Source: Glaciozyma antarctica PI12
Taxonomy: Eukaryota > Basidiomycota > Microbotryomycetes > Kriegeriales > Camptobasidiaceae
Length of the DNA stretch: 63,827 nt
Assembly: GCA_002917775.1 (NCBI GenBank)
Contig: KZ627151.1
Location: 187,541-251,367, forward strand
Direction: 5' to 3'
Shown: positions 1,063 through 58,300 of the stretch, piece by piece
Layout: each line of letters starts with the position of its first letter
Numbering within the stretch: the stretch's first letter is position 1
Notes under the pieces: model-generated
Told to the model about the DNA's origin: nothing
The model's input: the letters and a program-made list of their open reading frames with translations, nothing else
Database searches by the model: none
Position numbers and translations under genes: made by a program

Positions 1063-4000
1063 ATGCCGCCCTACAAGAGCAACAACCGCGGGCGAGGTGG
1101 TGGAGGAGGCGGCGGCGGCAGAGGCGGACGCGGTAGCTGGCGAGGGAGGGGACGCGGTGGAGGAGGAGGCGCGCGAGGAGGCAAGGCGGGAGCTCCTGTT
1201 CTCAAGACCGAGGCCGAGGGAACGCGGGAGGGAGACCGATTAGAAGACGCAAAGGTGAGTTGGCGCGGTGCCAGGCTGGTGGGCTTGGAGAAGGCGGGAA
1301 TGGGGGGGAGCTGACGCGAGGTGATGGCAGGCTTGGGACGACTTGGACGAGAAGCTCGGGTTCCCAAAGTACCAAGAAGGACCGGCAAGGACGGGTTGGC
1401 TGGTTAACATGATTCAGGTGAGTTCGGCGCGTGTGGAGGAGAGCTAGGGCGAGGGCGGGAGCTGACCTCGGAGGCGCCGTGCAGACGCTTCAACTCGACG
1501 AGTCGACCAGCTCTGGGCGGATGGGAGTCGACTATTACTTTATTCAGGAGGACGGAGGCATGTTCAAGAGCACGATCTGCTACGAACCGTACTTTTATAT
1601 CGTCTGTCGAGTACGCGACTTCATCTCCTCCTCCCGGCGCTATTCAGCTCACCACTTGTCTCCTGCAGAAAGGCCACGAGGGTCAAGTTGAGGAATGGAT
1701 TATGCGCAAGTACGAGGATCTCGTCATTAAGATTGAGCGAGTGCGGAAAGAGGATCTCAAGCTGGTGAGCACCTCTGAGCTCTCCTTTCACATCTTCGCT
1801 AACTCCTTCGCACCAGCCCAATCATCTCCTCGGCTACCGGCGCGAGTATATTCAGCTGTTCTTTCGCAACCAGAACGACCTCTTCAGCGTACGACGGGAG
1901 CTCCTCCCAATCGCCACGAAGAATCGCGAGAAGCTCGACGCGGTGGACACCTACGCCGAGGTCATCAGCGGGGAGCAGCAGTTCAACATGGATTACGAGA
2001 TGAGCGAAGGAGAGAGGAAGGGCCAGTCGTTCGCGCAAGTTGGAGCTGGAGCAGGGGCGGCGGGGAGTCCTTCGGATTCGATTCTCGACATCCGCGAGTA
2101 CGACGTTCCTTACTACCTTCGTGTAGCCATCGACAAGGGTGCGTTCGTTTCGCTCTGTTTTTTGGCTTCGTCGCTGAATGCCACTTCGCAGACATTCGAG
2201 TCGGACTCTGGTACGAGGTCGCAGCGCTGCACGGCGACATCACCATTACCCTCATCAAGGAGCGAGTTAGTCGAGCCGAACCCGTCGTTATGGCGTTCGA
2301 TATCGAGACTACCAAGGCGCCTCTCAAGTTCCCCGACCAGCAGACGGATCAGGTCATGATGATCTCGTACATGATCGACGGGCAGGTGCGTTGCTTGCAT
2401 TCAACTCAGCAGGAACCACGCTCATGCCTCGACGCAGGGATTCCTCATCACCAATCGCGAGATCGTCAGCGCCGACATCGAGGACTTTGAGTACACGCCG
2501 AAGCCGGAGTACGAAGGGCCGTTCACGATTTTCAACGAGGCGGACGAGGTGCGCTCCTCCCTCCCTCTCACCGTCCTCTCTAACCCTTGCCCTCCACGCA
2601 GCCCGCCACTCTTCGTCGCTTCTTCGAGCACGTCCGAGAAGCCAAACCGACCGTTATCGCGACCTACAACGGCGACTCGTTCGACTTCCCCTTCCTCCTC
2701 GCTCGGGCGACAGTCCATGGGATCGACATGTACAAGGAGACGGGATTCACGAAGGACCAAGAGGAGGAGTTCAAGAGCCGTGGATGCGTGCACATGGACT
2801 GCTTTCGGTGCGTTCTGGCTTTCGCGAAGCGTGGAGACGGTCACTGAGATAGTTCGCAGATGGGTCAAGCGCGATTCCTACCTCCCTCAAGGATCGCAAG
2901 GCCTCAAAGCTGTCACCGTCGCCAAGCTGGGCTACAACCCCATCGAGCTGGATCCCGAGCTCATGACTCCGTGCGTTCCTTTTGTCAGCTTCGCGCTCAA
3001 ATTGAGCTAATCGCTCGCGCGCAGGTATGCCGTCGAGCAGCCGCAGATCCTCGCGCAGTACTCGGTTTCCGACGCCGTTGCGACCTACTACCTCTACATG
3101 AAATACGTCCACCCTTTCGTCTTCTCGCTCTGCAACATCATTCCCCTCAACCCCGACGAAGTCCTTCGGAAAGGCACCGGAACGCTCTGCGAGACTCTTC
3201 TCATGGTTCGTCGCTTCCTTCCTCTCCACCACTCCTGAGCTGACTTGAAATAACGCAGGTCGAAGCTTATCGCGGAGAAGTCATCATGCCGAATCGTCAC
3301 GTCGAGACGCAGACGAACATGTACGACGGCCACCTTCTCGAGTCGGAGACGTACGTCGGAGGTCACGTCGAGGCGCTCGAGGCGGGAGTCTTTAGGAGCG
3401 ACATCGCGGCCGACTTCAAGATGAACCCCGACGCAGTTCAGCAGGTGCGTTCAGCCTCTCCGTCTCGTTGTTGTCGCTCGAGCTGACCTCCCGGTTTCCT
3501 ACAGCTCATCGACGACCTCGACGACGCTCTCCAGTTCAGCATCACGGAGGAGGGCAAGCATTCGCTCGACGACGTCGTCAACTACGACGAAGTCAAAGCC
3601 AACATCACCGCCATGCTCGAAGAGCTCCGCGACAACCCTCTCCGCTCCGACACGCCCCTCATCTACCACCTCGACGTCGCCGCCATGTACCCCAACATCA
3701 TGTTGTCGAACCGGCTTCAACCCGATTCCGTCGTCGACGAAGCGACGTGCGCGGCGTGCGACTTCAACCGGCCAGGAAAGCAGTGCCAGCGCAAGATGAA
3801 GTGGGCGTGGAGGGGCGAGTACTTCCCCGCCAAGCTCGACGAGTTCAAGATGGTTCGGAACGCGCTCGAGCAGGAGTTCTTCCCGCCCAAGTGGCCCGGG
3901 AAGCCTCAGCGACGGTTCGTAGACCTCTCGCCGACGGAGCAGACGTCGCTTCTTCATAAGCGGCTCGGCGACTACTCGAGGAAGGTCTACAAGAAGACGA

Positions 4001-7000
4001 AGGAGACCAAGATTGAGACGAAGGAGGCCATCATCTGCCAGCGCGAGAACCCCTTTTACGTGAGTCGCTTTCGACCGTGCTCGTTTAGATCGCACTGACG
4101 CCTTGCTGTCGAACGCAGATCGACACCGTCCGTACTTTCCGAGATCGTCGCTACACCTACAAGGGCCTGCACAAGACCTGGAAGAAGAACCTCGACACGG
4201 CTCAGCTCGAAGGCTCGGTACCGGAGATCGTCGACGCGAAGAACATGATCGTTCTCTACGACTCACTCCAGCTCGCTCACAAGTGCATTCTCAACTCGTT
4301 CTACGGCTACGTTATGCGCAAGGGCGCTCGTTGGCATTCGATGGAGATGGCCGGCATCACCTGCCTCACCGGAGCTTCGATCATTCAGATGGCGCGCAAG
4401 GTTCGTACCAGCTCTCAGCTGGGTCCAACTCAGCTGACGAAAGGTTCTTCGCAGCTCGTCGAACAGATCGGACGTCCTCTCGAGCTCGACACGGACGGCA
4501 TTTGGTGCATGCTCCCCAGCGCCTTCCCCGACGGCTTCGACTTCAAGCTCGCCAACGGCAAGAAGTACGGGATCTCGTACCCCTGCACGATGCTCAACCA
4601 CCTTGTCTACAAGGACTTCACCAACGACCAGTACCACGAGCTCGTCGACCCGGCGCGAGGAACGTACGAAGTTCGAAAGGAGAACTCGATCTTCTTCGAG
4701 CTCGACGGACCGTATCGCGCGATGATCCTCCCGTCGTCGAAGGAGGAAGACAAGCTCCTCAAGAAGCGGTACGCCGTCTTCGACACGGACGGCAGCCTCG
4801 CCGAGCTCAAGGGATTCGAGGTCAAGCGGCGCGGAGAGCTTCAGCTCATCAAGACGTTCCAGTCTCAGATCTTCGAAAAGTTCCTCCTCGGATCCGACCT
4901 CAAGGAGTGCTACGCCTCGGTCGCCTCCGTTGCCGACAAGTGGCTCGACGTCCTCTTCACTAAGGCCGCCAGCCTCCCGGACGACGAACTCGTCGAGCTC
5001 ATCGCCGAGAACCGGAGCATGTCCAAGACCCTCGCCGAGTACGGAGCGCAGAAGTCGACCTCGATCTCGACCGCCAAACGACTCGCCGAGTTCCTCGGAG
5101 AGCAGATGGTGCGCGACAAGGGACTCTCGTGTCGGTTCATCATCTCGACCAAGCCGCATGGAGCGCCCGTCACCGAGCGAGCGGTCCCCGTCGCCATATT
5201 CTCCGCCGAGCCGAGCATCAAGAAGCACTTCCTTCGCAAGTGGCTCAAGGACAACAGTCTCGCCGACTTTGAGCTTCGGTCCATCCTCGATTGGGACTAC
5301 TACATCGTGCGTCGTCCTTCCTTCTCCCCTGAAGACGAGATCTAACGTTCTTCTTCGCAGGAACGTCTCGGCTCCGTCATCCAGAAGCTCATCACCATCC
5401 CCGCCGCCCTCCAAAAAGTCTCCAACCCCGTCCCTCGCATTCGCCACCCCGACTGGCTCTTCCGCCGAGTCGCCAACCTCGAGGACAAGTTCAAGCAGCA
5501 CAAGGTCGACGAAATGTTCGCTCGTCAGAAGCCCGTCGTTCGGGAGGAAGGCGACGTCGACGACCTCGAGGACTTTGGACGACGCGCGGAGAAGGCTCGA
5601 ATCGTCGAGCGCAGCCCCACTCCTCCCCCCGCCCCCGCTCCCGACATGATGGTCAACTACTCGGGCTGGATCGCCCACATGAAGCCGATTTGGCGCGAGA
5701 AGCGCAAGCAGATCGCAGCGGCTGGTCGAGCAGGATTCGGATCGAAGAGCGGAGCGCTCGGCTCGATGCTCGCGCAGCAGTCGAACTTGCTCTCGTCGCA
5801 GGTCTGGGACATCGTCCAGATCACGCCGGTCTCGGAGCGACCGGGCGAGTTCAAGATGTAGATGCTGATCGGGGACACGCTCCAGAGCGTTCGCCTCAAG
5901 ATCCGGCGGGAGTTCCTCGTCAACTTCGTCGAGCTGCCAACGGCGGACGACGCGTGGCCGAAGACGTGCATGGTCGAAGCCCTCACGCGGACGCTACCTC
6001 GCTCGCAGCGATGCATCAACCTCGTTCGCGTCTCGACTCCCGAGGAGGACTACATCAAGGACGAACCGATTTACGGCGAGCTCCTCAACGGCCCCGACGT
6101 CGATGGCGTCTACGAGATGCAGGTTCCGCTCATCGTTCGAGCTCTCCTCCGCCTCGGATCGTCGTGCGTTCCCGACGCGAGTCGGGGAATCACCCTCCAC
6201 ACCGGTCTCGACCGCCACTTTGAGCTCGACGACCTCAAGCGCTCTGGAGCCACTCTCAGTCGACGACGCTACCTCGACCGCGGTCAGAAGCTCCGCTACA
6301 CCTACCTCTTCCACACCACCAGCGACTCTCGCCACATCTTCGGCCTCTTCCTCCCCGACGGCACCGCCAAGGTCTACGTCGTCGAGCGCGGCAAGTCGCG
6401 CGAGGTCCCGAACCTGGAGCGCTACTACGCCGAGCAGCTTCAGAAGCGGAAGGACGTCGAGCAGCAGAAGGCGGCGAGCGAGCGGGAGGCGGGCGTCTTC
6501 GCCTACGCCGACACGATCAAGGTCGAGGTTACGTTCCCGAGCAGCGAGGACGTCGCCTTGCGCGCTCTCTCGCGGGAACTGGCAGCGCTCGCGTCTCAAA
6601 AGTCCGCCTCCTCCCTCCTCATCGTTCACTCGCCTAAACCCCGCGCCTACTTCGACGAACGCGTCGCCGGCTCCTCCCAATTCCCCTTCATCGTCATCCA
6701 ATCCTCCAAAGCCGACAACACCTTCCCCGCCCTCCTCTGGCAAGCCCCCGCCTGTCGCCGTATGGTCCAGCACTACCTTCGCGCGTCGGTTTGGATCAAG
6801 GAGCGGATCGAGCTCGCAGACAGGTTCGACGTCCCCATCTGCAACCTCGAAAGCGACGTCCCAGTCTTCCTCGCCGACATCGACTTCGCCCGCCGTCTCG
6901 TCAAGGCCGACCTCGTTCTCTGGTGGTCGCCCTCCTCTCGTCCCGACCTCGGAGGTCGAGAAGCAGACGCCAACTCTCAGCAACTCGCGGAGGAGCTCGT

Positions 7001-8685
7001 CAACCCCGAGATTGGTCGAGCGGGCTGCTACTCGAACGCCTGCCTCGAGGTCGACCTTCGAAACCTCGCCATAGACGCAGTCCTCCAGTCCTCGTTGGTC
7101 TACGAGCTCGAAGGCGGAGAAGGAGGAGCGTCGATCGGATTCGAAGCGGCGTCGCACAACCTCGACGAGTACGCGAAGGGAACGGCCCACGCCGCCGTCT
7201 CGCTCGGCGACGCCATCCTGCCGACGCAGACGTTCAACATTCTTCGTTCGATGGTCAAGGCTTGGTCGACCGAGGCGTCGAAGCCTGACGGAGCGCACTG
7301 GCGCCTCATGATCGATCACTTTTGGCGTTGGATCAGCTCGCCCGCCGCCAAGCTCTACGATCCCGCCCTCTACCGCTTCGTCCACGGCCTCATGCGCAAG
7401 ACGTTCTCGCAGCTCCTCGCCGAGTTCCGACGACTGGGATCCGAGATCGTCCACGCCGACTTTGGGCGCATCTTCCTCCTCACCAGCAAGCCGTCTTCGA
7501 GCAGCGCATACGCCTACGCCAACTGTGCGCTTTTCTCTCCCTCGCTCTTCTATAACTGCAGCTAACGAATGAACGACTTGCAGACGTTGTCTCGTCGGTC
7601 ACCTCCCGAGAGCTCTTCCGCTACATCCAGCTCGACATCGTGCGGTTCTGGGACCAGCTCGTTTGGATGGATACCGCCAACTTTGCCGGCGTGATCTGCC
7701 ATCATCCAGAGGAGATCGACCTTCCCGACGCCGAAGTCGAGATCGAGATGCAGTGGAACGTCGCGACCTTCCTCCCCCCGGCCGTACAGGAGGACTTTGC
7801 CGTCGTCGTCGGGCGCTTCGTCCACGGGATGCACATGGCGAAGCGGCAGTCGAGCGATTCGATTCGGACGCCTCTTCGGATCCTCCAGAACGGGAGCGGA
7901 ACGGCGGCAGATCCCAACAAGGCCGATGAGCTCGAGCTCGCAAGGACGTTCGTCTCGCAGACGCTCACGCGCCAACTCCTCAAGGTCGTCACTTCCCTTC
8001 GCGACCGCTACGCCGACAAGTCGCAGCGTGAGGACTTCATCTTCCCCCTCCTCCCCGGCTCGCACCTTAAGATGAAGAACCCTATCCTCGAGTTTATCAA
8101 GACGACCTGCGCCATCCTCTCTCTCGCCAAGGACGTCTCCGCCGAGGGCATCGTGCTCAAGCGCAACCTCCTCGACTTGATCGGCGTACGCGAGTTCGCC
8201 TCCGAAGCGGCGTTCCGGAATCCCTGCCTGCCGTTCAAGGTGCCGATGGTCGTCTGCAAGAACTGCAACACCGCGCGAGGTACGTCTCTCGCCACCTTCC
8301 GCAATCGCAGCCTCACTGATGCGTGCGTCTTGCAGATCTCGATCTCTGCCGCAACGTCGACCTCCTCGTCCAAGGTCGCGCCTGGTCCTGCGAACGCTGC
8401 GCGACCGAGTACGACCGGAACGCCATCGAGGCCGTCATGATCGACGCCATTCAGCGTCGAGCCGTCTCGTACCAGCTTCAAGACCTTCGCTGCGGTCGAT
8501 GCAAGCAGATCAAGTCGGATAACCTTCGCGTGCACTGCGAATGCTCGGGCGAGTACGTTATGGCGGAGACGAGGGCCGATCTCCTGCGGCGACTGCAGGT
8601 CACGGGGAACGTGGCGGACGCGCATGGGTTGGAGACGCTGGGGGCTTGTATCGAGGAGCTGAGGGAGGCCATCGGGTCGGCTTGA
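1063..8685 (+). CDS. POL2: DNA polymerase epsilon catalytic subunit, interrupted by an in-frame TAG
   Basis: Leading-strand replicative polymerase. I read 17 exons (1063-1254, 1331-1417, 1485-1610, 1669-1764, 1817-2138, 2192-2385, 2438-2548, 2602-2807, 2860-2970, 3025-3205, 3259-3444, 3505-4059, 4119-4400, 4455-5306, 5361-7524, 7584-8279, 8336-8685), giving 2,236 codons before the final stop, the usual family length. Exonuclease motifs are FDIE (about residue 310), [10 protein letters not shown] and [12 protein letters not shown]. Polymerase motifs are [13 protein letters not shown] (A), [12 protein letters not shown] (B) and LDTDGIW (C, about 893). Two C-terminal Cys pairs sets (CKNC/CERC about 2113-2141, CGRC/CEC about 2173-2189) match the family's metal-binding CysA and CysB. 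The first 40 residues are an Arg/Gly-rich RGG-like tail. Codon 1334 (5859-5861) is TAG where the family has Trp (FKM*MLI against F-K/R-L/M-W). As written it separates the catalytic half from the C-terminal half. Confidence 0.95.
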
Positions 8686-15369: not shown

Positions 15370-15972
15370 ACACCGCTCCACCCCCTCCAGCGCCGTAAAC
15401 CACTCCATCGCCCAATCGTCCTCCCTCCTCCTCTGCCACTTCTGCATCGCCCTCACCGCCGCCTCGACCACCTCCTGTCCCGCCAGCTGCGTCTTCGCTC
15501 CGACCTTTCCGCTCCCCAAGACTCCTGCCCCGAGCGTGGGCGCAGCGAGGTTGATGATCTCCTGCTTGACGACTTCGAAGCTGAGCGCGTTCGGCGGGCC
15601 ATCTAGGGAGAGCGAGGTGGGGAGGTGGAGGATTTGAGTTGGGGACAGGGAGAGTTGCGGAGCTCCATTCGAAGAGTTGTGGCTGATGGAGTTGTGAGTA
15701 GTAGGAAGGAGAGATGCGAAGATGGTAAGAGATGAATGCAGGTAGGCGAGGAATGAGGTGCGTGAGGTGCGAGGGACGAATGGAGGAGAGCGAGGTGAGA
15801 AGATTGAGAGTCGTCAAAGATGGGAGAGAGGGGAGAGAGGGGAGGAGGGTCGAGTCGATGGAGGCAGTGATGGAGGTGAGAGCTGTCGCGGAGGAGAGAG
15901 CGAGGAGGTGCGAGTTCGTGAGGCTAATGTCCGCCATGTTGAGCTCTTCGAGTAGCGAACTCGTGCGGAGGA
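15370..15972 (-). pseudogene. Inverted second copy of the leucine-rich gene, 5' part lost in the gap
   Basis: The reverse complement matches positions about 108-700. A block covering LRTSSLLEELNMADIS through HLIPRLP is identical. About 50 nt are then strongly diverged and 8 nt longer than in copy 1, and a second patch is 7 nt shorter, a net +1 that throws the downstream sequence out of the frame used by copy 1. After this the DNA is again nearly identical (QKWQRRREDDWAMEWF is still encoded, but in another frame). The 5' portion disappears into the run of N. Either this copy is a pseudogene, or an intron or assembly error hides the correct frame. Product type as for 1-717. Confidence 0.55.
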
Positions 15973-16667
15973 NNNNNNNNNNNNNNNNNNNNNNNNNNNN
16001 NNNNNNNNNNNNNNNNNNNNNNNNNNNNNNNNNNNNNNNNNNNNNNNNNNNNNNNNNNNNNNNNNNNNNNNNNNNNNNNNNNNNNNNNNNNNNNNNNNNN
16101 NNNNNNNNNNNNNNNNNNNNNNNNNNNNNNNNNNNNNNNNNNNNNNNNNNNNNNNNNNNNNNNNNNNNNNNNNNNNNNNNNNNNNNNNNNNNNNNNNNNN
16201 NNNNNNNNNNNNNNNNNNNNNNNNNNNNNNNNNNNNNNNNNNNNNNNNNNNNNNNNNNNNNNNNNNNNNNNNNNNNNNNNNNNNNNNNNNNNNNNNNNNN
16301 NNNNNNNNNNNNNNNNNNNNNNNNNNNNNNNNNNNNNNNNNNNNNNNNNNNNNNNNNNNNNNNNNNNNNNNNNNNNNNNNNNNNNNNNNNNNNNNNNNNN
16401 NNNNNNNNNNNNNNNNNNNNNNNNNNNNNNNNNNNNNNNNNNNNNNNNNNNNNNNNNNNNNNNNNNNNNNNNNNNNNNNNNNNNNNNNNNNNNNNNNNNN
16501 NNNNNNNNNNNNNNNNNNNNNNNNNNNNNNNNNNNNNNNNNNNNNNNNNNNNNNNNNNNNNNNNNNNNNNNNNNNNNNNNNNNNNNNNNNNNNNNNNNNN
16601 NNNNNNNNNNNNNNNNNNNNNNNNNNNNNNNNNNNNNNNNNNNNNNNNNNNNNNNNNNNNNNNNNNN
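15973..16667. other. Assembly gap (695 N)
   Basis: A run of 695 undetermined bases begins inside the duplicated leucine-rich gene. The scaffold also starts inside the other copy of the same gene, so the duplication itself probably broke the assembly. The gap should contain the 5' end of the inverted copy and the promoter of the F-box-like gene at 16717. Confidence 0.98.
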
Positions 16668-17770: not shown

Positions 17771-18300
17771 TTCCATTCGAAGGTGCGCTCTTTCTCTTTG
17801 CTCTTGCAAAGGTGTACACCTGCTGACCGCTGTTCCAGTCCAACTCGCGACTGAGCTGTCATTCGGAGGACGCGTGAGGAGGAGCTTGAGGTCGAGAAAG
17901 GGGTGCTGGATCAGTGCTTTGCGGTGGAGTTGCTCTGCGGGACAGCTCGTGCAGATAGCAGTAACCCTTTGTACTACAACACATCAAGGGAAGCGCACAA
18001 TCGAGCACAGCAACGCACCTGGATTGCTGGCGTTGCGTCTTCCTCCTTTGTCCTTCTCCCCTCAGCGGACACCTCCCTCCCTCCCCTTACCTATGCTTCT
18101 AGCTCGCCCGTCTTCACTCTCCTCAAGACCAAACAACGCCGAGCCTCGCGCGATTCGCCCTCCTTCTGCTGCTCTCGCTCCCTCGAGACTTTTGGAACAC
18201 ATTCTCGGCGGTGAAGAAAGGAAGACGAGAAGCGGCACTGCGATGGAAGAGGAGAACGGTAGCGAACTTCGCTCAAGCACCCCTTCGCTACATTCCACCA
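17771..18300. other. Intergenic region between convergent genes
   Basis: The 3' flanks of the F-box-like gene (+) and UBA2 (-) meet here. I see no conserved coding stretch, tRNA or repeat. The last part (about 18230-18300) is included in the region duplicated in inverted orientation near 23590-23640. Confidence 0.4.
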
Positions 18301-20904
18301 TCAATCCAGCACAATCACATCGTCATCCTCCTCCACCTTCCCCCTCTTCCCCGCGCCACCCTCCTCCAGCTCTGCATCTTCCGCACTCCTCTTCGTCCCC
18401 TTCACCTCAAGCATCTCATCGGGATCGCTATCCGGCTCCGGAACCTCGACAGGCGCCTTCATCGGGATCTCAGGAATCGGTGCTCCAAGGCGGTACGCGA
18501 TCGTCGAGTCGGGCAGCGGTCTGCGCACGAACATTAGTCCCGAACGAAAAGGATAAGAAGAAAGGACGCACGCGGAGATGGAGAACGAAACGGGGTACCT
18601 CGGCTCATCGTCGTCGAGCACGACGACGAACGATCCCTCTCCCAGCCCGAGCTCACTCATCGTCTTCGCCTCATTGTCCTCGAAATCCTCCGTCTCAAAC
18701 AGCACCCTCGCCCCCTCCTGCACCGTAACGTGTCCCTCCATTCCCAGCTCGCCCACGACGACCTTCTCGACGAACTTGCCGAGCGTGAGCGAGGGGTCGA
18801 GAGAGATGGGGAGGTAGACGACTCGACAGACGGGACAGTGCGGGTTGGGCGAAGAGAGGTTTGAGACGGAGAAGATCTTCGTGGTGGTGCGAGCCAGGTA
18901 GACGAGCGACGCCTGCTTGTAGGAGTTGCGCAGGATATGTAGAGCCTGGAGGACGAGAACGCCGGCGATGATGGCGTTCGTGGTGGCGATGGCGGGGATG
19001 ATGTTGCCGGCGTACTCTGGCGAACGAGGTCAGCGAGATGCCAGAGGGGAGGTTGGGGAACGAACCTTTGACTTGGAAGCGAGTTTGAGACTCGATGTCG
19101 AAGGCAGAGGCGCGCAGGTTGGCGGCAGCGACGACAAAGTCGAGAGTGTCGTCGTCGTCCTTGTCGAAGGCGATCGGGTTCCCCTCGTCAATGCGAAGTG
19201 CGAGTCGTTCAACGCTGCAGTCGTAGATTTAGCTGAGACCACTCGCGAGGAGGAAAGCTGACTTGCCTGGAAACGAAGAGAGCGAAGGAATCGGCGAGGC
19301 TGAGAGTGCGCTGGTCCTTGATCCCTTGCGCCGCAGCGGAGCTCTCGGCGACCGGCGGCTGAGGCTTGACGAGCTCGTCGTAGGAGAGCGGGTGCGGCGG
19401 CTTGCGGTGCTTCCACATGTCCTCCATGAGAAGGAGACGCAGAATGTCCTGAGAGTAGACCTGTGCACGGGAGTCAGCAGCGGTCAGGCGCCAGCCAGGA
19501 CCGACCTACCTTCTCGAAGATGCGCTGGGCTGCTCCGGGAGCCGAGATAGTCGAACGTAGCTCCTTGATAGCCGCAGTTTCCTTGCGTAGCGACTGGATC
19601 TCGTCGGCTGGTGATTGTGGCGTTAGCAGGGGGAGTGAGGGGGAGCGAGCAAGCAGCTCACCATTCTCGCCGTTATTCTCCGCATCGTCGAGGTCCTGTC
19701 CATCCGCCCCGTCATCGGCTCCAAAGAGTTGACTGCAGAAAGCTGTTAGCAAGTCAAAACGCGAAGGAAGAGAATGAGCGCACGGAAGGAGGTAGCTCTT
19801 CGCCCACGCAATGCAGTGATGAGCCGTCGATGGGGTGCTGCGAATAGTGCACACAGCAAAAGTCTTCGGAACGGGCTTTCCTGCTCGCGACACGTCAGCT
19901 CCACTCTTGTACTCCAATGAGGAACGCAGGAACGTACCAGTGCAGTCGAAGCACTCGGTCACGTCCTTCCTGATCGGCTGAACCTGGCCAACGTATCCCA
20001 TTGTACCGGATTCGATGAGAGGGATGTTGGCGGCAAGGCACATCGTTGTTGACATGGCGGCGAGCATCTGGGGAAGTCAAGGAGTCAGCTCCAGCTTGCC
20101 TGACCGGGCCCTCCTCTGGCTTCTCCTGGCTTCCCCCAACCTCCCCCACACGGATAACTACTCACCCAGGTTATCGAGAGCGTTCATCACGAAGTCAAAG
20201 GACTTGAAGTAGTCGACGTTGAACTCTGCGTCCTGCCGTCCGCGCGCGTCAGTCGCGTCCGCGTCGACTCTCCCAGAATCGGCGAGGAAGCCTGTGCACC
20301 TTGATGTTCCGGTGCAGAGCCTTGATGTTGATGTTTGGGTTGAACTTGAGCGCAGTCTCCTTCGCCACCTGCGCGTCTCAACGCCATCAGCTCGCGCTCA
20401 GCTCTCGGACCCCAAGCTCCCACCAGAAGCGACAGACGCACCACCGCCTTGGGCCGCTTGACGTGCTGCTTCTGGAAGAGGAATTGCCTGTTGAGGTTGC
20501 TAAGGTCGATCGTGTCGAGGTCGAGCACCTCGATGCTTCCTGTCGCGTTCCCTCCGAAACCAGTCATCACTGCAGGAGCGCGTTAGCTAGCTCCACCAGT
20601 CCCGCGATCACCCAGCTTAGCGCACCCATGTTCTTGATGAGCTCGCATCCGATCCCACCAGCGCTGTACGAGCTGGTTAGCAAGAAGCAGCCGGGAGCGG
20701 AGGAGGAGACGAACCCGACGACAAGGACGCGAGAGGACTGGACTTTTTCGAACAGCTCAGCGCCGAGGATGGCTCGGCTGCTGGCGTAGCGCGCAGAGTA
20801 AGGGGCTGCTGTGGACGACAGGGTGGGCAAAGGCGCTCTGTGGAGGTGGGGAGCTGAGAGAGGGAGGTCACGCCAGAACGCGACTGAGCTCTTCCTCCTT
20901 CCAT
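18301..20904 (-). CDS. UBA2: SUMO-activating enzyme E1 subunit 2
   Basis: Catalytic half of the SUMO E1. It adenylates SUMO and carries it on a cysteine before transfer to UBC9. Visible elements are the nucleotide-binding [57 protein letters not shown], catalytic cysteine in [10 protein letters not shown], zinc pairs CFDC and CPVC, a ubiquitin-fold region and the C-terminal DDDVIVLD, which resembles the human UBA2 end DDVIALD and looks like a SUMO-interaction motif. There are about 11 exons and about 680 residues. The start is uncertain: ATG 20904-20902 is the nearest candidate but needs a small intron to reach the [14 protein letters not shown] frame, and ATGs near 20984 and 21020 are alternatives. 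One extra base at 20044-20047, between DARRHVN and MCLAAN, breaks the frame. Confidence 0.9.
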
Positions 20905-21053: not shown

Positions 21054-23191
21054 ATGGACATCCTTCCCTCGCCAGTTCAGGACTCGGTGCCTCTTCCAGC
21101 CGTCGAGGAAGTTGCCCCCTCTAGCCGACCAGACGCCCACACCCAGCGTTACGACCGACAGCTCCGGTACGCCTTCCCAAGGACCTCCCCTCGAGCCCCC
21201 GCTCCCCAGCTGACTCCACGCGCAGGCTCTGGGCTTCCACCGGACAGAGTGCACTTGAGAATTCTTCCCTCCTTGTCGTGAATGGAAGCGCCACCGCTGC
21301 TTCGACCTTGAAGAACCTCGTCCTACCAGGTGCGTCCAGCTCGGCTCTCTGGCCGCTTTGACGCGCTGACTCCAGGAGCGCAGGGATCGGCAAGTTCACT
21401 GTCCTCGACCCAGCGCTCGTGGAGGGCTCAGACGTCGGGAACAACTTCTTCCTTGAGCACTCGAGCATTGGCAAGCCGCGTGCGGAGGAGGTGACGCGGT
21501 ACTTGTCGGAGCTCAACTCGGATGTCAAGGGTGTCGGGCTGGTCAAGGTAGGCTCAGAGCTTTCTAGGGGAGGGAATGGAGCTGACAGTGACTGCAGGAC
21601 CTCGCCGACATTCTCGCGCAGTGCCCTGCCTCTCTCGCCGAGTACTCCCTCATCATCGCCGTCGATGTTCAGCCCTCCCATGCGCTCCAACTCGCCGACA
21701 TTGCCTGGCAGCACTCGATTTCGTTCATCAAAGTCAGGAGTTGCGGATTCTACGGGTCGCTGCGGGTCCAGTTGCGCGAGTTGGCCAGTGCGTCTTTTCG
21801 AGCTCATGAGTGCGGAGGGAGCTGACTTCGTCGCAGTTGTTGAGACGCACCCGGAGAGCTTGATCGATCTTCGAATTCACACGCCGTTCCCAGAGCTGGT
21901 GGAGTACGCGAGAACGTTCGACTACGCGACGATGGATAGCAAGGATCACGGCCACGTCCCTGCGGTTGTTATTCTCGTCAAGGCGTTCGAGGAATGGCGA
22001 GCTGCTGTGAGACTTTTCACCTTCTGGACGTGTAATCGAGCTGATCCGAGACGCTGTAGCACGGAGGGAAGGGACCCGAGACGGCGGCCGAGCGCAAGGA
22101 GTTCGCGCAGGCCGTGATGAAGCAGAAGCGCAACAGCGACAAGCGAGAACTTTGACGAAGCCGTCACTCTCTTCCGTCGTGCGGGAACGAAGAACGCCGT
22201 ACGCTCTTTCCTTCCTGGCCCAAGTCCCAGCTAATCGCCTCATAGGTCCCCTCCGAGATTCAAGCCCTCTTCGACGACCCCTGCTGCACCTTCATCTCCT
22301 CCTCCGTACGCCCTCCCTCTCGCCTCTCCTAAAGCTGTAGTCACCCTCCTTGCAGTCCTCAAACTTCTGGCTCCTCCTGCACGCCGTCAAGACCTTCTAC
22401 GCTTCCTCCTCCCCACCCCTTCTCCCCCTCTCCGGCGCCCTCCCCGACATGAAAGCCGACACCTCCCGCTACGTCGGTCTCCAAACCCTCTACCGCGCGA
22501 AAGCCAAGGCGGACCTCGCGCGCGTCGAGGAGATTCTCGCAGCCGTCTTGGAGAGCGTAGGGTTGCCTCGCGAGACGGTGGGGAAGGAGGAGGTCGAAAC
22601 GTTCGTTAAGCATTCGGCGTTCTTGAAGGTGGTGAGGGGTCGGAGTCTGAGGGAGGAGATGGAGGTACCAGCGCTCAAGGGCCAAGTCGGTGCGTTTTGT
22701 TTCAATTGGCATCTGTGGGCGCGCCACTGATCTTCGGTGCAGAGGCGATCATCGCTGCTGCGGCGTATAGCGAAGTCCCCGACGACTCGCTGAGCATCTA
22801 CATCGCGTTCCTGGCCTCTGATCTCTTTTTCGAGAAGGAGGGTCGGTACCCCGGTACGGCGGAGGACGACGTGAGCGGGGAGAAGGACGTCGAGGCTTTG
22901 ACGGCTCTCGCGGCGCACGTTCTGCGAAGCCTCGAGGGGGGAGAAGTTTCCGAGGAGCTCGTCAACGTTGTTCAGGAGGTGTACGTCTTCTCTCCCTCGT
23001 TCGGTGTGCGGAGCTGATGGATTTGTCGCAGCTGCCGAAGCGGAGCGTCGGACCTCCCGCAGATCGCGGCTCTTATGGGAGGACTCGTCGCGCAGGAAGC
23101 GATCAAGCTCGTTACGAAGCAGTACGTTCCGCTCAACGGGACGTGCATCTTCAACGGGATTCGGTCGACGACGAGTGTGGTCAAGGGGTGA
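21054..23191 (+). CDS. ULA1: NEDD8-activating enzyme E1 regulatory subunit
   Basis: APPBP1/NAE1-type partner of UBA3 that helps activate NEDD8/Rub1 for cullin modification. The protein begins [11 protein letters not shown] and continues with [20 protein letters not shown], the inactive-adenylation-domain start, followed by [14 protein letters not shown] and [19 protein letters not shown]. It lacks a catalytic cysteine, as the family does. [14 protein letters not shown] and the C-terminal [20 protein letters not shown] are family hallmarks. There are about nine exons and about 530 residues, with a stop at 23189-23191. An extra base at 22141-22147 (GACAAGCGAGAACTTTGAC) puts [14 protein letters not shown] out of frame with the preceding [11 protein letters not shown] see no intron that could repair this. 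Confidence 0.9.
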
Positions 23192-24357
23192 TGAGGGGAG
23201 GGGAGGTAGTGCTTGATACTCGCAGACGCTTTCATAATGTTCCATTGATGCCGCCCTTGCGCGACGACGACGAGTGCTCCGTTTTATTTTCGTTCCAATC
23301 TCGGCGTTCCCTCTTCTCTCCCTTTTCTCACAACGTCGCGCGGAGACCGGTGCCCGACTCGACGATCGCATACCGCCGTGGAGCGCCGATTCCTGAGATC
23401 CCGATGAAGGCGCCTGTCGAGGTTTCGGAGCCGGGTAGCGATCCGCCGAGGTGCTTGAGGAGAGGGGGACGAAGAGGAGTGCGGAAGATGCAGAGCTGGC
23501 GGAAGGTGGCGTGGGGAAGAGGGGGAAAGTGGAGGAGGAAGACGACGATGTTATTGTGCTTGATTGTGGGGCGGAAGAAGGAGAAGTGTAGCGAAGGGGT
23601 GCTTAAGCGAAGTTCTCTGCCGAGATCTGCACCGTTGCCGGCTCCGTTATTCTTCCCCTCCTTCGCAATCTCGCTTTATACTCCTTTTCTTCGACGTGAG
23701 GAGACGTTGCTTAGTATCCTTGAGAGGGCGGAGGACCGAAACGGCTCAGTCTTCACGAGGTAAGGGGTCAAACGTACAGAGTAGGGGGTACCAAAGTGCT
23801 CGCTGGCTTTGAATTCTCCTTCGTTTATCGTGTGAACCGCGTGATAAGCGCACAGCGATTGAGAAGTGCTCTTTTCTGCGTAAACGCCCAAGTCTTGCCT
23901 AGGGAGAGAGTGTTGGGGTGCGCTGGAGGTAGCGAGGGGTGCCGAGATCGCTTTTTCTGGGAGAACGGCGCGACGACACCTGCGGGGAGCGCAGCCTTTG
24001 GGTGCTAGATTCAAGACGACGCGTCAAGAGCGTTTCTGAGGTGTTTCCAGCGCAACAAGCGCCGCCATCGTAATAAACAGCAGTGCCTTCCTCGAGCGCT
24101 CGAGCTGCGACCCTTCCATTGTCGTGCAAGCTCTCTCTCGCTCCAGCAGTTCTCGCCATCGGGGTCCTGTGAGACAATTCCTGGTTGCATATACGAAGCT
24201 ACGGAGACCACCAGGCTACTCTGTAAGTGCCAACCTACGCAAGGTCGATGGGGACAAAGGTAAATCCCTGTGCGGAGTTGAGGTCAGCTTGGGCAGGCAG
24301 AAAAATCTGGGTACGCACAAGGAGGCGTGGATTTAAGCCTTCGTTGAGATCCTCTAG
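23192..24357. other. Intergenic region holding a UBA2 fragment
   Basis: Apart from the inverted UBA2 3' fragment at 23335-23640, nothing is recognised. Open frames on either strand are short and lack conserved motifs. Positions 24222-24357 read as a possible 3' extension of the Cys-rich gene: after its TAA the same frame gives LEDLNEGLNPRLL and, across a GT-AG intron, GFTFVPIDLA followed by TAG. Confidence 0.45.
23335..23640 (+). pseudogene. Inverted fragment of the UBA2 3' end
   Basis: The segment encodes [20 protein letters not shown] and then KAPVEVSEPGSD, matching UBA2's last exon ([32 protein letters not shown]). DNA similarity continues past the UBA2 stop into its 3' flank (GTAGCGAAGGGGTGCTTAAG against the reverse complement near 18270-18285). 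Small deletions shift the frame after EPGSD, so no functional protein is expected. It lies just after ULA1 on the opposite strand to UBA2, so the pair UBA2/ULA1 is bracketed by inverted copies of this segment. Confidence 0.8.
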
Positions 24358-26710
24358 TTATCGCCGCACGGCGTCGAAGTCCGGCGCAACAAAGAAATTC
24401 TGCGCGCGTGAAAAGAGTCAGAACGTCCTGCAGAGCAAAGTACAGTTGAAAGAACTCACCGGCCCCCCGTATTCGGACGTTTCAGCTCTTAACGGAACGA
24501 GAGGAGTCTCCACCCCATTCACATCACCGTAAGCACGATAAAAGGGTGTGAGCACGACGGCCGGAGCCGAGTCAGCGCAGGATGCGCGCCACATCTTCGT
24601 GACCTGCTCCACGTCGCCAAATCCAGCAAGGAGTCCTAGTTAAAACGATCAGAAGTCGGTTTCCAGTTCAGCGAGCGAAGCAAAGGCTCACCTGGTGCAG
24701 CGAAGTGGATGGCAGCGCCCCAGCCGAGTGATTCGAGGGGATAGTCACGCATGACTACGATGCCGAAGAGTGCTTGATGTGGCAGGGAAAGAGAGGGCAA
24801 CAGACTAAAGGAAGTGGTCTGGAGCTGCGAGTCAGCGAGGAAAGGGAAGAGAGCAGTTATAACTCACCTCCAGATCATCAGCGGTGCCTGAGATGGTGAA
24901 CGTAGACGCCGCGTTGAAGGGCAAGAATACAGCAGTAGCCCAATCGGTATCTGCATCTGGGGCGATGTAGCCTAGGACAAGACCGTTGGCGATCTGCGTA
25001 ATGCGGACTTTGCCAGCTTTACTAGTATAAGAAGGTCCGTGAGGATTGTCAAACGGAAGCCAGGCACGTACGTTCGGGCAGCGAGAAGCAGCACTGTGGA
25101 GGAATGTCATCTTAACGCGAGCTAAATGAGAGTCGAACGTACAAGGGCAACGGCTCATACACTTCCCGTCGACAAGCTCCGCCTGACTCGTCAAGTTGCA
25201 GGCCAACGACTCAAGCCTGGTGCAAGCTGATGCCAGGGGATCGTAGCATCGCACGCAGGAAGACGCTGTGGTGGCTGATCAGCGATGTACAGATTGGGAA
25301 GAGGAAGAACGCACTGAAGGAGTCGATGAATTGAGCGCCGTCGCAGACCGCAGTGATCTTGCAAGCGCCAGCGACGAGGGAGAATCCGGGCGAGCAGGAG
25401 AGGATGGTCGAAGGCGAGCAGGTCGCGACGTTGGCGCCAGCACAAACGCAGACGTTGCCTGCGCGGTGAGATCGTCAGCGACGAGCTTCGCAGGGAGAGA
25501 CGAAAAGGGACCGCACCGAGAATGTCGAGCTTCTCAGCCACTCCGCAATCTGTCGCCACGAGGGTCGTTTTGCAGGCGCCAGAGATGAGGGTGAATCCTG
25601 GAACGCACTTCGTCGCCTCCGTGCTGGTGCAAGAAATGGCGTTCTTGTTGGCGCAGTCAACACAGCGATTATCTGTCCGCCCGACAAGAAGAGGTTCAGC
25701 AACGATCCATCGCAAGGAAACAGCGCGACATACTCGGACTCCTCAAGTATTGACGCCCCGTGCAGACCGGCGCCAACGCTTCGCAGACACCCTTAACGAG
25801 CCTGAACGCAGGAATGCAGCTCAAGGCCTTCCTCCTTGAGCACGTAAGAGCGTTCTTATCGGCGCAGGTGAGGCAGCGATTCTCTGACGAGGAGCGAAGT
25901 TAGCAACTGGGACTTCGGAAGCGAGGAAGGAGAGACGCACTCTTGGTATCGAGATGTCGAGGACCAGTACACTTCGCGAGCGGCACTTCGCACACGCCTG
26001 TGACGAGCTTGTAGATGCCGATGCAGCTCAGTGACTTGGAGCTGGAACAAGTGAGCGCCCGCGAATCGGGGCATGCGACGCAGCGATTTACTAATGGGAA
26101 GAAAGAGCGGGGTGAGCAAAGTGGAGTGATCCAGACGGAGGAATGGACGCACTCGTCGTGTCGATGTACTTGGCGCCAGAACAGCTCGAAGCGGAGAGAG
26201 GGACTTCACAAACACCCCTCACGAGCGTGAACCTCGCTGAGCAGTTCAAAGCCTTCGAAGCCGAGCAAGTGAGGGCGTTCTTGTCCGCGCAGGCGACGCA
26301 TCGGTTCGCTGACAAGGTGCGGGTCAGCGGGATAAGCGGAAAGAAGGAGGAGGACGCACTGGTGTTCTCGACGTATTGCGCGCCGGCGCAGGTAGTAAGG
26401 GGCACCTCGCACGCACCACGAACAAGCTGGTACGCAGCGGCGCAGCTCAAGGATTTGGAGCCGGAGCAGGTGAGGGCGTGGACGTCGGGGCAGGGGACGC
26501 ATTTGGGCCCTGCGGAGTAGGAATCAGCACGGCGGCAGGGTCAGAGTAGAGTCGCAACGTACTGGCGTGGACGTTCTGATACGTGCCGGATGGACAAACT
26601 GCCGCTCTGGCGACGAGCCGTGCGCTTCTCCCCACACGGGCGGAGGCCGAAGCGACGAGACAGCTGAGGAAGAGCGCAACTCCCGCAGCGGTTGAGAAGA
26701 ATCCCGGCAC
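24358..26710 (-). CDS. Secreted protein with seven exon-encoded Cys-rich modules
   Basis: A hydrophobic leader (STAAGVALFLSCLVASASA) is followed by seven Cys-rich modules, each on its own exon, and a C-terminal region of about 150 residues (KAGKVRITQIANGLVLGYIA, DYPLESLGWGAAIHFAAPG, AETSEYGGP, NFFVAPDFDAVRR). The modules follow NRCVxCxDKNALTC, then KxLxC, LVxGxC and EVPL. They resemble furin-like or Giardia-VSP-like repeats in pattern only. The start is uncertain: the frame at 26710 begins with GTG and has no in-frame ATG before a stop, so a short upstream exon is likely (acceptor-like CCGTAG about 26718). The written stop is TAA 24360-24358, but conserved-looking sequence continues behind it in the same frame. 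I do not recognise the C-terminal domain. The protein is probably a cell-surface or secreted factor. Confidence 0.75.
25143..26509 (-). repeat. Tandem phase-1 exons encoding Cys-rich modules
   Basis: The module exons are 26360-26509, 26153-26308, 25941-26090, 25734-25883, 25517-25672, 25315-25458 and 25143-25265. The first six are 150, 156, 150, 150, 156 and 144 nt, all multiples of three and all bounded by phase-1 introns, so each can be gained or lost without changing the frame. Cys spacing is C-x2-C-x7-C-x7-C-x10-C-x6-C in the first modules. It degrades in modules 6 and 7, where the first spacings change. The most similar are modules 1 to 4. Confidence 0.85.
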
Positions 26711-27528
26711 ACGCGTTGCTACGGATGCGTGGCGAAGGATTAGGATTAGGGAAAGAGAGAGCAGAAGAAGAGGAGTCAGGACCTTGTCAAGGGAGATACG
26801 CGTTCGTGGTAGGGGACGCCCGGCCCTTCAGTTCGGAGAAGCGACCATTGCTGGCGAGCTGTGGGGGGAGCCGGTGAGTAGAAGAACCCACCGACTGAGC
26901 GACGGAACTGCGAACTTCTCGAAGAGATTTAGTGGCGTGCCGGCACGGAACAAAGGGAGCGTTCCGACGATCTAGGTCGTGGGGAGCAATCGCAGAGCAG
27001 CCACCCGCCTGTGCAGGTAGGTACGGTCAGCACGAGAATAGGTGCTGATGGTTTGAGCAGCGCTGAGGACCGTGAGCTGAGGAGAGTGCTCCGCTACTCG
27101 GTGTCAGTCCGAGGCGACCGACGCAGAACAGCTGAAAGGAGGAACGGCAGGGGACACCCACGGGGGAAAGAAGCATCAGCACGCAGCTAGCAAGCTGGGA
27201 GGAACGCCAACCGTGCCTTGAGGTCTTGAGGTCGGGCCTGACCCTCCCTCTAGACCTGCTCGCCGATTCCGGAGTCCGCCCCAATCTGCCAGCTCGCAAG
27301 CAGTCCCGAATTACCCTCCACCCTGCGAGGTCCTGCGAGCGTCAGCTTCCACCTCACGAGCGACCGCCTCGCGTCGAAGAAGCGAGAGCGAGTCGAGATC
27401 GACGCGCCAGTGCGCACAACGAGCAGTCCCAAGCTTCCCGCCCAAAGTCCAGCACGCCTCGCTCCCCAACCTCCGTGCGAACCGAACCAAGTCAACTCCT
27501 AAATTACCTCACACACGCCAACTCGCCT
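26711..27528. other. Intergenic region between two minus-strand genes
   Basis: Roughly 800 nt without a convincing gene. It should hold the promoter and probably a short 5' exon of the Cys-rich gene, and the 3' flank of the GGA-like gene. Open frames are short, Arg/Ser-rich and motif-free. No tRNA, repeat or transposon end was seen. Confidence 0.4.
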
Positions 27529-55300: not shown

Positions 55301-58300
55301 CGATAGCAGTCTCCTGCAAAGGCAGAGTTAGCTGGCTATTGCTCAAATTGAACGAGCAGCTCACCTTCTTCGACTTCTTGGCTTTGACCGGCGGGATGTC
55401 CGCAACAACAACGGCGCAGTAAGGCCTAGCAAGAGCGAGGTCGAATGCAGCGGCGGGCGGAAGAACCTTCGCGACAAGTTCGGCGATGCCTGAGGGAAGA
55501 ACGAGGTGAGCCGTGAAAGCGAGAAGAGCCAGTCAAGGTACGCACCGGCGACAGGAGTAGCGGCCTCGGCGGCAGCGAATGCGCGCAATAGACCCTGCTC
55601 TCCGACAAGGATGACTTTCATCCGCTGCTGAACTCGCTCGTCGCTGCAGTCAACCACGAGCGATCCCATGAACGCCGCAAACGCCTGGCGATCAGCCTCT
55701 GGCCATGCTCCGCCGAGATAGCGGTGGAGGAGGACCTGAAGTGCGACGGGTGCAGCGCCGCGTTTGAGGAGAATCTGGGCGAGGATCGCGGTGGTCGCGG
55801 GGTTGACGAGGTCGGCAGGGCGGACGTGGAGGAAGACGAGCTCGACGGGCATGGCGGTCAAGAATCTACGAACGAACAGGCGTCAGTTTTCGGAGCAAGA
55901 CTGAGAGGGAAGAACGCACTGCTCCAAAGTCGCAACATCCTCCCCAGCCGCAGCGAACACGTTCGCTTTCCTCGGGCTCAACGCCGCCAGCTCTCCTCTG
56001 AGAACGTCGGCCTCTCCAGCGACCTCTCTAGCCTCCTCGACCGCCGCCACGCACTCCTTGAGGAACTTGAGCGCATCCTTCGTCGCCTTCCCCTTTCCAA
56101 ACGACTCTCCCAGCGCAGCGACGACCTTCTTCGGCCCCTCCATTCCCACCGACTGCCCAATAAATCCCAAGACGAGCTGCCTCACGAACGCCAACACCTG
56201 CCCCGCCTCCTTCGCCGCCTCGAGCTCGGCTTTGAGCCCCGCGAGAACGGTGACCAGCAGCGGGCTAAAGTCGGCCTAGACGACCTCGACTACGTGACCG
56301 TCTTGATCGGAGCCGTGAGGGTCTTTTGGACGCTGCGCTCGAAAAAGTCGAGCACGGCCGTCGAGGCTGGGTCGGATGCGAGTTGAGAAGGAGTGGGGAG
56401 GGCGGAGAGCCAGATGGATACTTCGGTGGGGGTCGTGCCGAAGAGAATCGGAGTTTGAAGAAGGCGAGTGAGGATGGAAAGTAGGAGGTGGAGGTTCGAG
56501 GGAGTAGAAGGAGTGCGGTAGAGCTGGAAGAGGGGGAGGAGGGTGTTCTTAAAGTGATCGCCTGGGGTGAAATCCATCAGTACATGCTCAGCCATTCGAG
56601 GAAGAAGCCAACACACCTGGCCTGGACCAAGATAGTCCCGAGCTGTGAATCGCAGCGAGTCGAAGCGCGTATGCCGACGAGATCGCACGAATTCCTTCCG
56701 CATCAGACTTGGCGACGTGTGCCTGCGGGAGCCTCGCGAAGTCGAACCGTAGAGTCGAGATAAGGGACGGGACGACGCGGTGGTAGAGCCAGAGCAAGCG
56801 AAGCGCGACGTTCGTGCGAAGGTGTCGTCCTCCGTCCTCCTCCTCCTTCGCCGGCGTGTCCTCGACCTTGTCGACGTCCATCTTGACCGCCTTTTCCTTC
56901 GACCTGCTCGACTTCTTCTTCACCTCGACCTTGGGAACACCGACGGCGGTCTTCTGCATCAATGCGACGACGATTTGAGGGTCGGGAAGGGTGATCCTGC
57001 AGTGCTCCCTCACGCGCATCGCCAGCGCCGCCCACCTCCCCGTCAAAGGGTTCTCCTCCAACCTCCTCGAGCTCTCCGCCAGAGCCTCGAGCACCCCCGT
57101 AGCCTTCTGAAGACCAGCGAGGATGAACAGCGAGGCGAGGAAGGAGACGAGCGGAGCTTCGTGCTGGAGCGCTTTCGAGTACCAGACTTTGGTGAGCGAG
57201 GGAGGGAAGATGGTGTCGAGGACTGAGGCGAGAGACGGAGGGGCAGTGAGGGGAGAGGGGGAGAGGGGGAGAGTGAGGTGAGGGGAGACGGGGAGGGAGA
57301 GGACGAGGGTGGCGAAGGTGATAGCGGAGATCCAGCGGCTAGAGAGTCGGGGGTCGAGGGAGGAAGGGAAGCGGGCCCAGAATCTGTAACACGGGATGGG
57401 TCAACGTCGGCAGAACGGCGCGAGCGGAGAAATAGCGCACAGGCCGGCAAGAATGGGGGCTCGCTCCAGGATGTGTAGTCCAAGCTCGCGCTGCTCCGAA
57501 TCCTCCGTGACCTTGAGCGTCCGAAGAACGGTGCCGAGAACCTTTTGTGGGCCAAACGAACGCGTCTGCGAGTCGTTGATCTGGGTCGCAAGCCACTCGG
57601 TGAGGGCGTAGAGGAAGCGATGGGTCGAGAGGCGGAGGGACTGAGAAGGGTTCTCCTCGTTATCGGGGACGTCGTAAAGCTTGACGAGCTTTGAAAAAGA
57701 GTTAGTGAAAGCCGCAGAATGAGAGGAGATGAACGTACTTCGATAATGCAGGGTTCGTCGAAGATGGATCGACGGGACTCGAGACCGACTGAACGGTCGG
57801 CGACGACGTCGCGGTAGAGTCCGACGAGAACGTGGTTGACGACGGTGTCGGGATCCTCAGAAAGGCCCTTGACCATGCCCGAGACGAGTCCCTTCGTATC
57901 GATGACCTCGCCCTTGAGCCTCGAATCTCCGGCGGAGAGGAACGCCAGTACTAGCATCGACAGGAGAGTTCGGATGTCGGGCTTGAGAAGGGGATCCCTC
58001 GAAGTATCCCTCAGCCTCGTCTTGAACAGGCGAGTTACGATCTGCACACGCGTGGTCAGCTCTTCCTTTCCGCTCTCGTCTCAAAAATTCGGCGTACCTT
58101 GGGAGACCACTGCATACATCCAAACAACCTCCTCGCAAACCTTCCCGATCCGAATCCGACCACCACATTGCACAACTTGAGCGCCGCGACTGTAACATCG
58201 TTCCTGCCGGGGTTGAGAGCCCTGTCAAGGTGGGTGCCGTACTGAGTAAGAAGGCGGCGGATGATCTCGGGCTCGCTGGCGAAAGGGTCGGTGGAGACAA

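Follow-up and report, generated by a model that had tools for sequence, protein, structure and literature searches.

We have found, on the minus strand of the 63.8-kb stretch of DNA analysed here (the window), a gene at 24358-26710 with 13 exons and 12 predicted introns of 43-62 nt, the product of which consists of a hydrophobic leader, seven Cys-rich units carried by seven exons, and a tail of about 175 residues. The gene looks genuine and uncharacterised. We regard it as an evenly balanced proposition that this is a secreted fungal protein in which seven furin-like units act as a disulphide-stiffened spacer for the C-terminal domain, and in which the array of units grew by tandem exon duplication.

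Results

The lengths of all seven repeat exons (exons 2-8) are multiples of three (Table 1). On the predicted joins, exons 2-7 each lie between phase-1 introns, as class 1-1 modules do, and exon 8 does so too if intron 8 is spliced; the initial annotation, which had the first six modules at 144-156 nt, divisible by three and bounded by phase-1 introns, was right in each of these respects. If intron phases were independent and phase 1 had a frequency of about 0.3, eight phase-1 introns in a row would be expected with a probability of about 7e-5, where 0.3 is an assumed round figure and the phases are not in fact independent, since duplicating one exon would copy its phase. Because every repeat exon is of class 1-1 and a multiple of three, an exon can be duplicated, lost or skipped without disturbing the reading frame. 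Between 25142 and 25022, introns 8 and 9 are either both spliced around a 22-nt exon or both read through, and the frame is open either way. Six of the 12 introns (1, 2, 6, 7, 8 and 9) hold no in-frame stop when read on, and intron 2, at 51 nt, keeps the frame if it is retained.

Table 1. Exons of the gene, with the splice donor and modelled phase of the intron that follows each.
Exon	Positions	Strand	Content	Donor of following intron	Phase of following intron
1	26563..26710	-	signal-peptide-like leader ...FFSTAAGVALFLSCLVASASA, then VCPSGTY, the opening of the repeat array	GTACGT	1
2	26360..26509	-	Cys-rich unit 1, 150 nt	GTGCGT	1
3	26153..26308	-	unit 2, 156 nt	GTGCGT	1
4	25941..26090	-	unit 3, 150 nt	GTGCGT	1
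5	25734..25883	-	unit 4, 150 nt	GTATGT	1
6	25517..25672	-	unit 5, 156 nt; donor downstream of non-enriched type	GTGCGG	1
7	25315..25458	-	unit 6, 144 nt	GTGCGT	1
8	25143..25265	-	unit 7, divergent and truncated, 123 nt; 3' end varies with splicing of introns 8 and 9	GTACGT	1
9	25072..25093	-	22-nt micro-exon (two-intron model)	GTACGT	2
10	24868..25021	-	C-terminal domain begins (KAGKVRITQIANG...)	GTGAGT	0
11	24692..24824	-	C-terminal domain	GTGAGC	1
12	24460..24635	-	C-terminal domain	GTGAGT	0
13	24358..24399	-	final residues ...NFFVAPDFDAVRR and stop

The units are related to one another. Their alignment contains eight invariant columns, six of them cysteines, and the position and phase of the intron are identical in every unit. 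Units 1-4 share 44-59% pairwise identity as protein and 56-63% as DNA, on which grounds the duplications look old. A profile made from units 1-2 and run against the six-frame translation recovered units 3-6 at E values of 1.4e-21, 9.6e-18, 2.5e-10 and 2.1e-09, and gave nothing better than about E 0.7 in the rest of the window. Unit 7 is not significant alone (E 5.1 with the profile of units 1-2 and 0.4 with one of units 1-4), and we would count it as a member by the order and spacing of its cysteines and by its position. The initial annotation's seven Cys-rich modules on seven exons are accordingly retained, units 1-6 being related by profile and unit 7 by Cys spacing and position, while the motifs it described as common to the modules are shared more loosely than claimed: LVxGxC occurs in six of the seven units, KxLxC in four, EVPL in three and the exact NRCVxCxDKNALTC in one. 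There are 44 cysteines before the C-terminal domain, one of them in the leader, leaving 43 in the array; the C-terminal domain has one.

The majority of the gene's splice donors match the window's own intron pattern. GTGCGT occurs 72 times in the window, against 25.6 expected from dinucleotide shuffles, and 43 times in an intron-like context (followed by a branch-point-like and an acceptor-like stretch), against 2.7 expected over 20 shuffles. The same context holds 24 copies of GTACGT (1.2 expected), 20 of GTGAGT (3.0), 14 of GTGAGC (4.8) and three of GTATGT (0.4); GTGCGG, the donor of intron 6, is about as frequent as expected (4 against 3.9). Scoring by codon usage, with 542 codons as the training set, gave no clean split between exons and introns, and exons 5 and 12 were not best-scoring in their own frame.

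The 12 introns contain 33.4% C and 21.1% G, a composition that resembles that of red yeasts. The mean C/G asymmetry of introns across fungi is given as 1.8%; the same paper reports an extreme excess of C in Rhodotorula graminis (42.7% against 23%), with Sporobolomyces roseus (29.5% against 22.2%) second, and describes R. graminis donors as carrying a C-rich extension (PMC4585186). Among 67 intron-like stretches in the window, C stands at +7 in 48% and at +8 in 60%. On these grounds the source would be a red basidiomycete yeast, probably one of the Microbotryomycetes. We note that the strong over-representation of GTGCGT and GTACGT donors across the window, together with C at +7/+8, offers a signature by which contigs could be assigned to red yeasts. 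Similarity between introns of the gene (21 pairs) reached z scores of at least 3.0 in two pairs (3.3 and 3.0), with a lowest value of -1.5, and is too weak for introns to be traced by sequence.

No other 19-mer of the protein is as hydrophobic as that of the leader, in keeping with the signal-peptide-like leader that had been noted initially, and the leader exon terminates in VCPSGTYQNVHA. The protein is probably secreted. It carries three N-glycosylation sequons; it has no strongly hydrophobic C-terminus, nothing at that end being comparable to the leader, which suggests that there is no GPI anchor. The leader exon lacks an in-frame ATG; position 26710 is a GTG, which we do not propose as a start. 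Between 27500 and 26710 the minus strand holds only two ATGs, at 27176 and 26848, and no convincing join to a candidate 5' exon upstream was found; an acceptor-like CCGTAG ends at 26719.

By sequence on its own, the unit is not placed in a family. Scanned whole, the protein gave a single weak Pfam match, to Ephrin_rec_like, which scored 19.4 bits (cut-off 23.1) across the join of exons 1 and 2. With the array divided so that each unit starts at CxxGxY, unit 1 alone reached 24.7 bits for Ephrin_rec_like (cut-off 23.1), which matched none of the other six units; TNFR_c6 stayed below its cut-off in one of the seven (16 against 29.4 bits), as did Furin-like_2 in unit 5 (16.2 against 28 bits), with no match in the other six, and five of the seven units gave BRINP below its cut-off or no match. 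Divided at the exon boundaries, four of the seven units matched BRINP weakly, which was the commonest result, and Furin-like_2 and IGFBP matched one each. NCBIfam gave no match to the protein, and a profile of the units against PDB sequences gave no R-spondin at E values up to 10. Two PDB sequence hits were taken as chance, one being a BRI1-like kinase (E 0.12) and the other a racemase (E 0.67), and an EGF or VSP-like repeat was weighed as the identity of the unit and set aside.

The C-terminal domain, described initially as unrecognised, stays so: it has no match in Pfam, NCBIfam or PDB sequences. We take it to bear a faint likeness to an uncharacterised basidiomycete family. Pattern searches gave 12 matches to this domain and two to the array in viral contigs, and 41 and 19, respectively, in genome contigs, with none confirmed in any of the four cases; no homologue was found in plasmids by near DNA match. 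The collections searched are viral, plasmid or prokaryotic records, which have little bearing on fungi, and the pattern method detects close relatives only. The initial annotation's view of the gene as a candidate for an undescribed extracellular or cell-surface system therefore claims more than such searches can bear. Among the papers listed by literature searches, none announces in its title an account of this protein or of a fungal array of 1-1 Cys-rich exons.

Structure prediction hints at a furin-like repeat. An AlphaFold model of unit 2, for which the remaining six units supplied the alignment, has four strands, a mean pLDDT of 73.3 and a pTM of 0.49, and two of the five models scored below 50; two units modelled with intron 2 read through gave a mean pLDDT of 37.3. 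In a Foldseek search of the PDB with the unit model, 24 of the 25 matches were R-spondin Fu1-Fu2 chains, all of them R-spondins 1 and 2 and hence one family, and all weak (best E 1.6, none at or below 0.001), the better ones superposing with an rmsd of about 1.1-1.9 A over about 30-35 residues. Against a library of viral structures there were 13 matches, all weak (best E 3.4). The module fold prediction advocated in the initial annotation has yielded a one-unit model that resembles Fu domains, with fold matches that are weak.

Profile alignment to Fu2 of R-spondin-1, the sequence of which was confirmed letter by letter against PDB chains, matches five cysteines of the unit in order and leaves two Fu2 cysteines without a counterpart. 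Fu2 scores 13.4 bits against the profile, whereas shuffles with the cysteines fixed average 5.7 bits and reach the Fu2 score in 16 of 2000 cases; Fu1 stands barely above its shuffles, 182 of 2000 of which reach its score. Presumably the two unmatched cysteines of Fu2 are bonded to each other. On this alignment, one R-spondin disulphide pair appears to be missing from the unit, and each exon unit has six cysteines, against the eight cysteines and four disulphides that mark an R-spondin-type repeat. Taken together, fold model and alignment make the unit resemble a furin-like repeat, and the weak Pfam matches to Ephrin_rec_like, TNFR_c6 and Furin-like_2 lean in that direction too. The Fu domain is described as three hairpins with four bridges, in a ladder, and the limits of the two domains of Rspo1 (39-94 and 97-142) were set from the bond pattern (PMC3905715).

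Should the units be furin-like, their boundaries would differ from those of the exons. By analogy, the last cysteine of each exon would pair with the first cysteine of the next, so that each intron would lie inside the loop so closed, and the cysteine of VCPSG in exon 1 would pair with the first of exon 2, an arrangement that would leave one of the 43 array cysteines over. The exon would then be a shifted repeat and not a self-contained module, since the introns would fall inside a disulphide loop. The initial annotation's one module per exon is to be read in this light: each unit does sit on its own exon, but with furin-like geometry the exon becomes a shifted repeat unit, and the statement depends on the register chosen.

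The gene is flanked on one side by a plus-strand gene ending near 23190, which we take to encode a ULA1-like protein, and on the other by a minus-strand gene with a sub-threshold match to GAT (17.1 against 31 bits). Just downstream of the plus-strand neighbour lies one copy of an inverted repeat (18257-18590 and 23288-23622; 348 columns, 82% identity) that looks like a dispersed element. A second inverted repeat (107-703 and 15375-15972; 605 columns, 92% identity) directly adjoins, by its copy at 15375-15972, an N gap at 15973-16667, and may be an artefact of assembly or of haplotypes. The low GC at 16-18 kb is apparent only, being due to the N gap, and the open reading frames there (445 and 439 aa) run through N. 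Elsewhere in the window, the plus strand at 1702-7565 encodes a DNA polymerase B exonuclease domain (E 2.7e-11) and DUF1744 (E 8.1e-125), a domain pair that we take to indicate the catalytic subunit of DNA polymerase epsilon, and the minus strand at 57043-58047 encodes an Npa1 60S biogenesis domain (E 4.4e-16).

Discussion

The closest likeness among known systems is to the R-spondins, which share with this protein tandem Cys-rich repeats, and probably hairpin structure and secretion as well, with a Cys order and a GxC turn that appear to align, and whose Fu domains are likewise reported to lie on separate exons (PMC6089978, PMC3532313). R-spondins, however, have two units of eight cysteines each, whereas this protein has seven units of six cysteines by alignment; it is fungal, it lacks a recognised thrombospondin domain, its C-terminal domain is unrelated, and its units fall below Pfam cut-offs. 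Ephrin_rec_like (PF07699) and TNFR_c6 (PF00020) share CxxGxY followed by CxxC, seen across the join of exons 1 and 2, but only one of the seven units matches, and Ephrin_rec_like exceeds its cut-off only when that unit is scanned alone. Like metazoan class 1-1 modules, the units are Cys-rich repeats of extracellular type between phase-1 introns, although here the introns are probably inside a disulphide loop and not at the edge of a domain. Fungi do have secreted or wall-associated Cys-rich domains, CFEM and WSC, reported in Rhodotorula graminis (PMC4585186), but neither family appears in the Pfam scan of this protein at E values up to 5.

We suggest that removal of the signal peptide would leave a protein that opens with seven tandem six-Cys furin-like units, and that these units may fold, to judge from the one-unit model, as an extended ladder of disulphide-bridged hairpins. 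Such a ladder would stiffen and space the mostly Cys-free C-terminal domain, which might be the part that binds, either at the cell wall or outside the cell; this last is the weakest step of the proposal. The array would have grown as one exon was duplicated in tandem along with the phase-1 intron attached to it, the order of events being our reconstruction.

It is also possible, if somewhat less probable than not, that the units are a small Cys-rich repeat of fungal or protist type that has converged on furin-like spacing and that belongs to a family for which fungal proteomes already carry an annotation, and the gene product may indeed already be annotated as a hypothetical protein. The whole protein is without a family match above cut-off and without a PDB sequence match, the units have six cysteines and not eight, and the fold matches are weak, all of which convergence would accommodate. 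The weak evidence nevertheless points one way, with 24 of the 25 fold matches being R-spondin Fu chains and Fu2 scoring above most of its Cys-fixed shuffles. How the array arose is a separate matter. The initial annotation saw in this gene the exon-shuffling architecture known from animals; the symmetric 1-1 exons stand and the comparison with animals is fair, but shuffling itself does not follow, since one gene with seven related units amounts to tandem duplication. True shuffling, in which the 1-1 Cys-rich exon would also occur in other genes of the lineage, strikes us as improbable: symmetric exons would permit it, and class 1-1 modules are the type that animals are reported to have shuffled (PMC8001218), yet the 63.8-kb window holds no second copy of the unit, the best match outside the array having an E value of 0.58.

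There is, in our view, only a small chance that the gene is a non-functional or mis-assembled remnant, with a genuine exon structure and a lost start codon. The leader exon without an in-frame ATG, the mere two ATGs upstream before the next gene, and a 695-base assembly gap elsewhere in the window would fit such a reading. The exons, however, are free of stops and the seven sets of cysteines stay in frame across 12 introns, some of which decay would be expected to have broken, and a commonplace alternative to a lost start is a further 5' exon, separated by an intron that went unrecognised. We retain as our preferred reading a secreted protein whose furin-like array expanded by tandem exon duplication.

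One review treats the shuffling of class 1-1 modules as confined to Metazoa (PMC8001218), and intron-containing secreted fungal proteins were at one time reported to be too few for statistics of intron phase (PMC1626468). Against this background we put forward, as a doubtful extension, that in red basidiomycete yeasts a furin-like extracellular repeat came to form a symmetric 1-1 exon and was then multiplied by exon duplication, in which case an exon-based way of building extracellular repeat proteins that has been described as restricted to animals would work in fungi too, possibly with frame-preserving skipping that gives surface proteins of varied length. Exon-built extracellular repeat proteins are usually seen as an animal invention (PMC8001218), and a clear example from a fungus, if it came from a yeast amenable to culture and editing, could serve to test how symmetric exons arise, multiply and come to be used.
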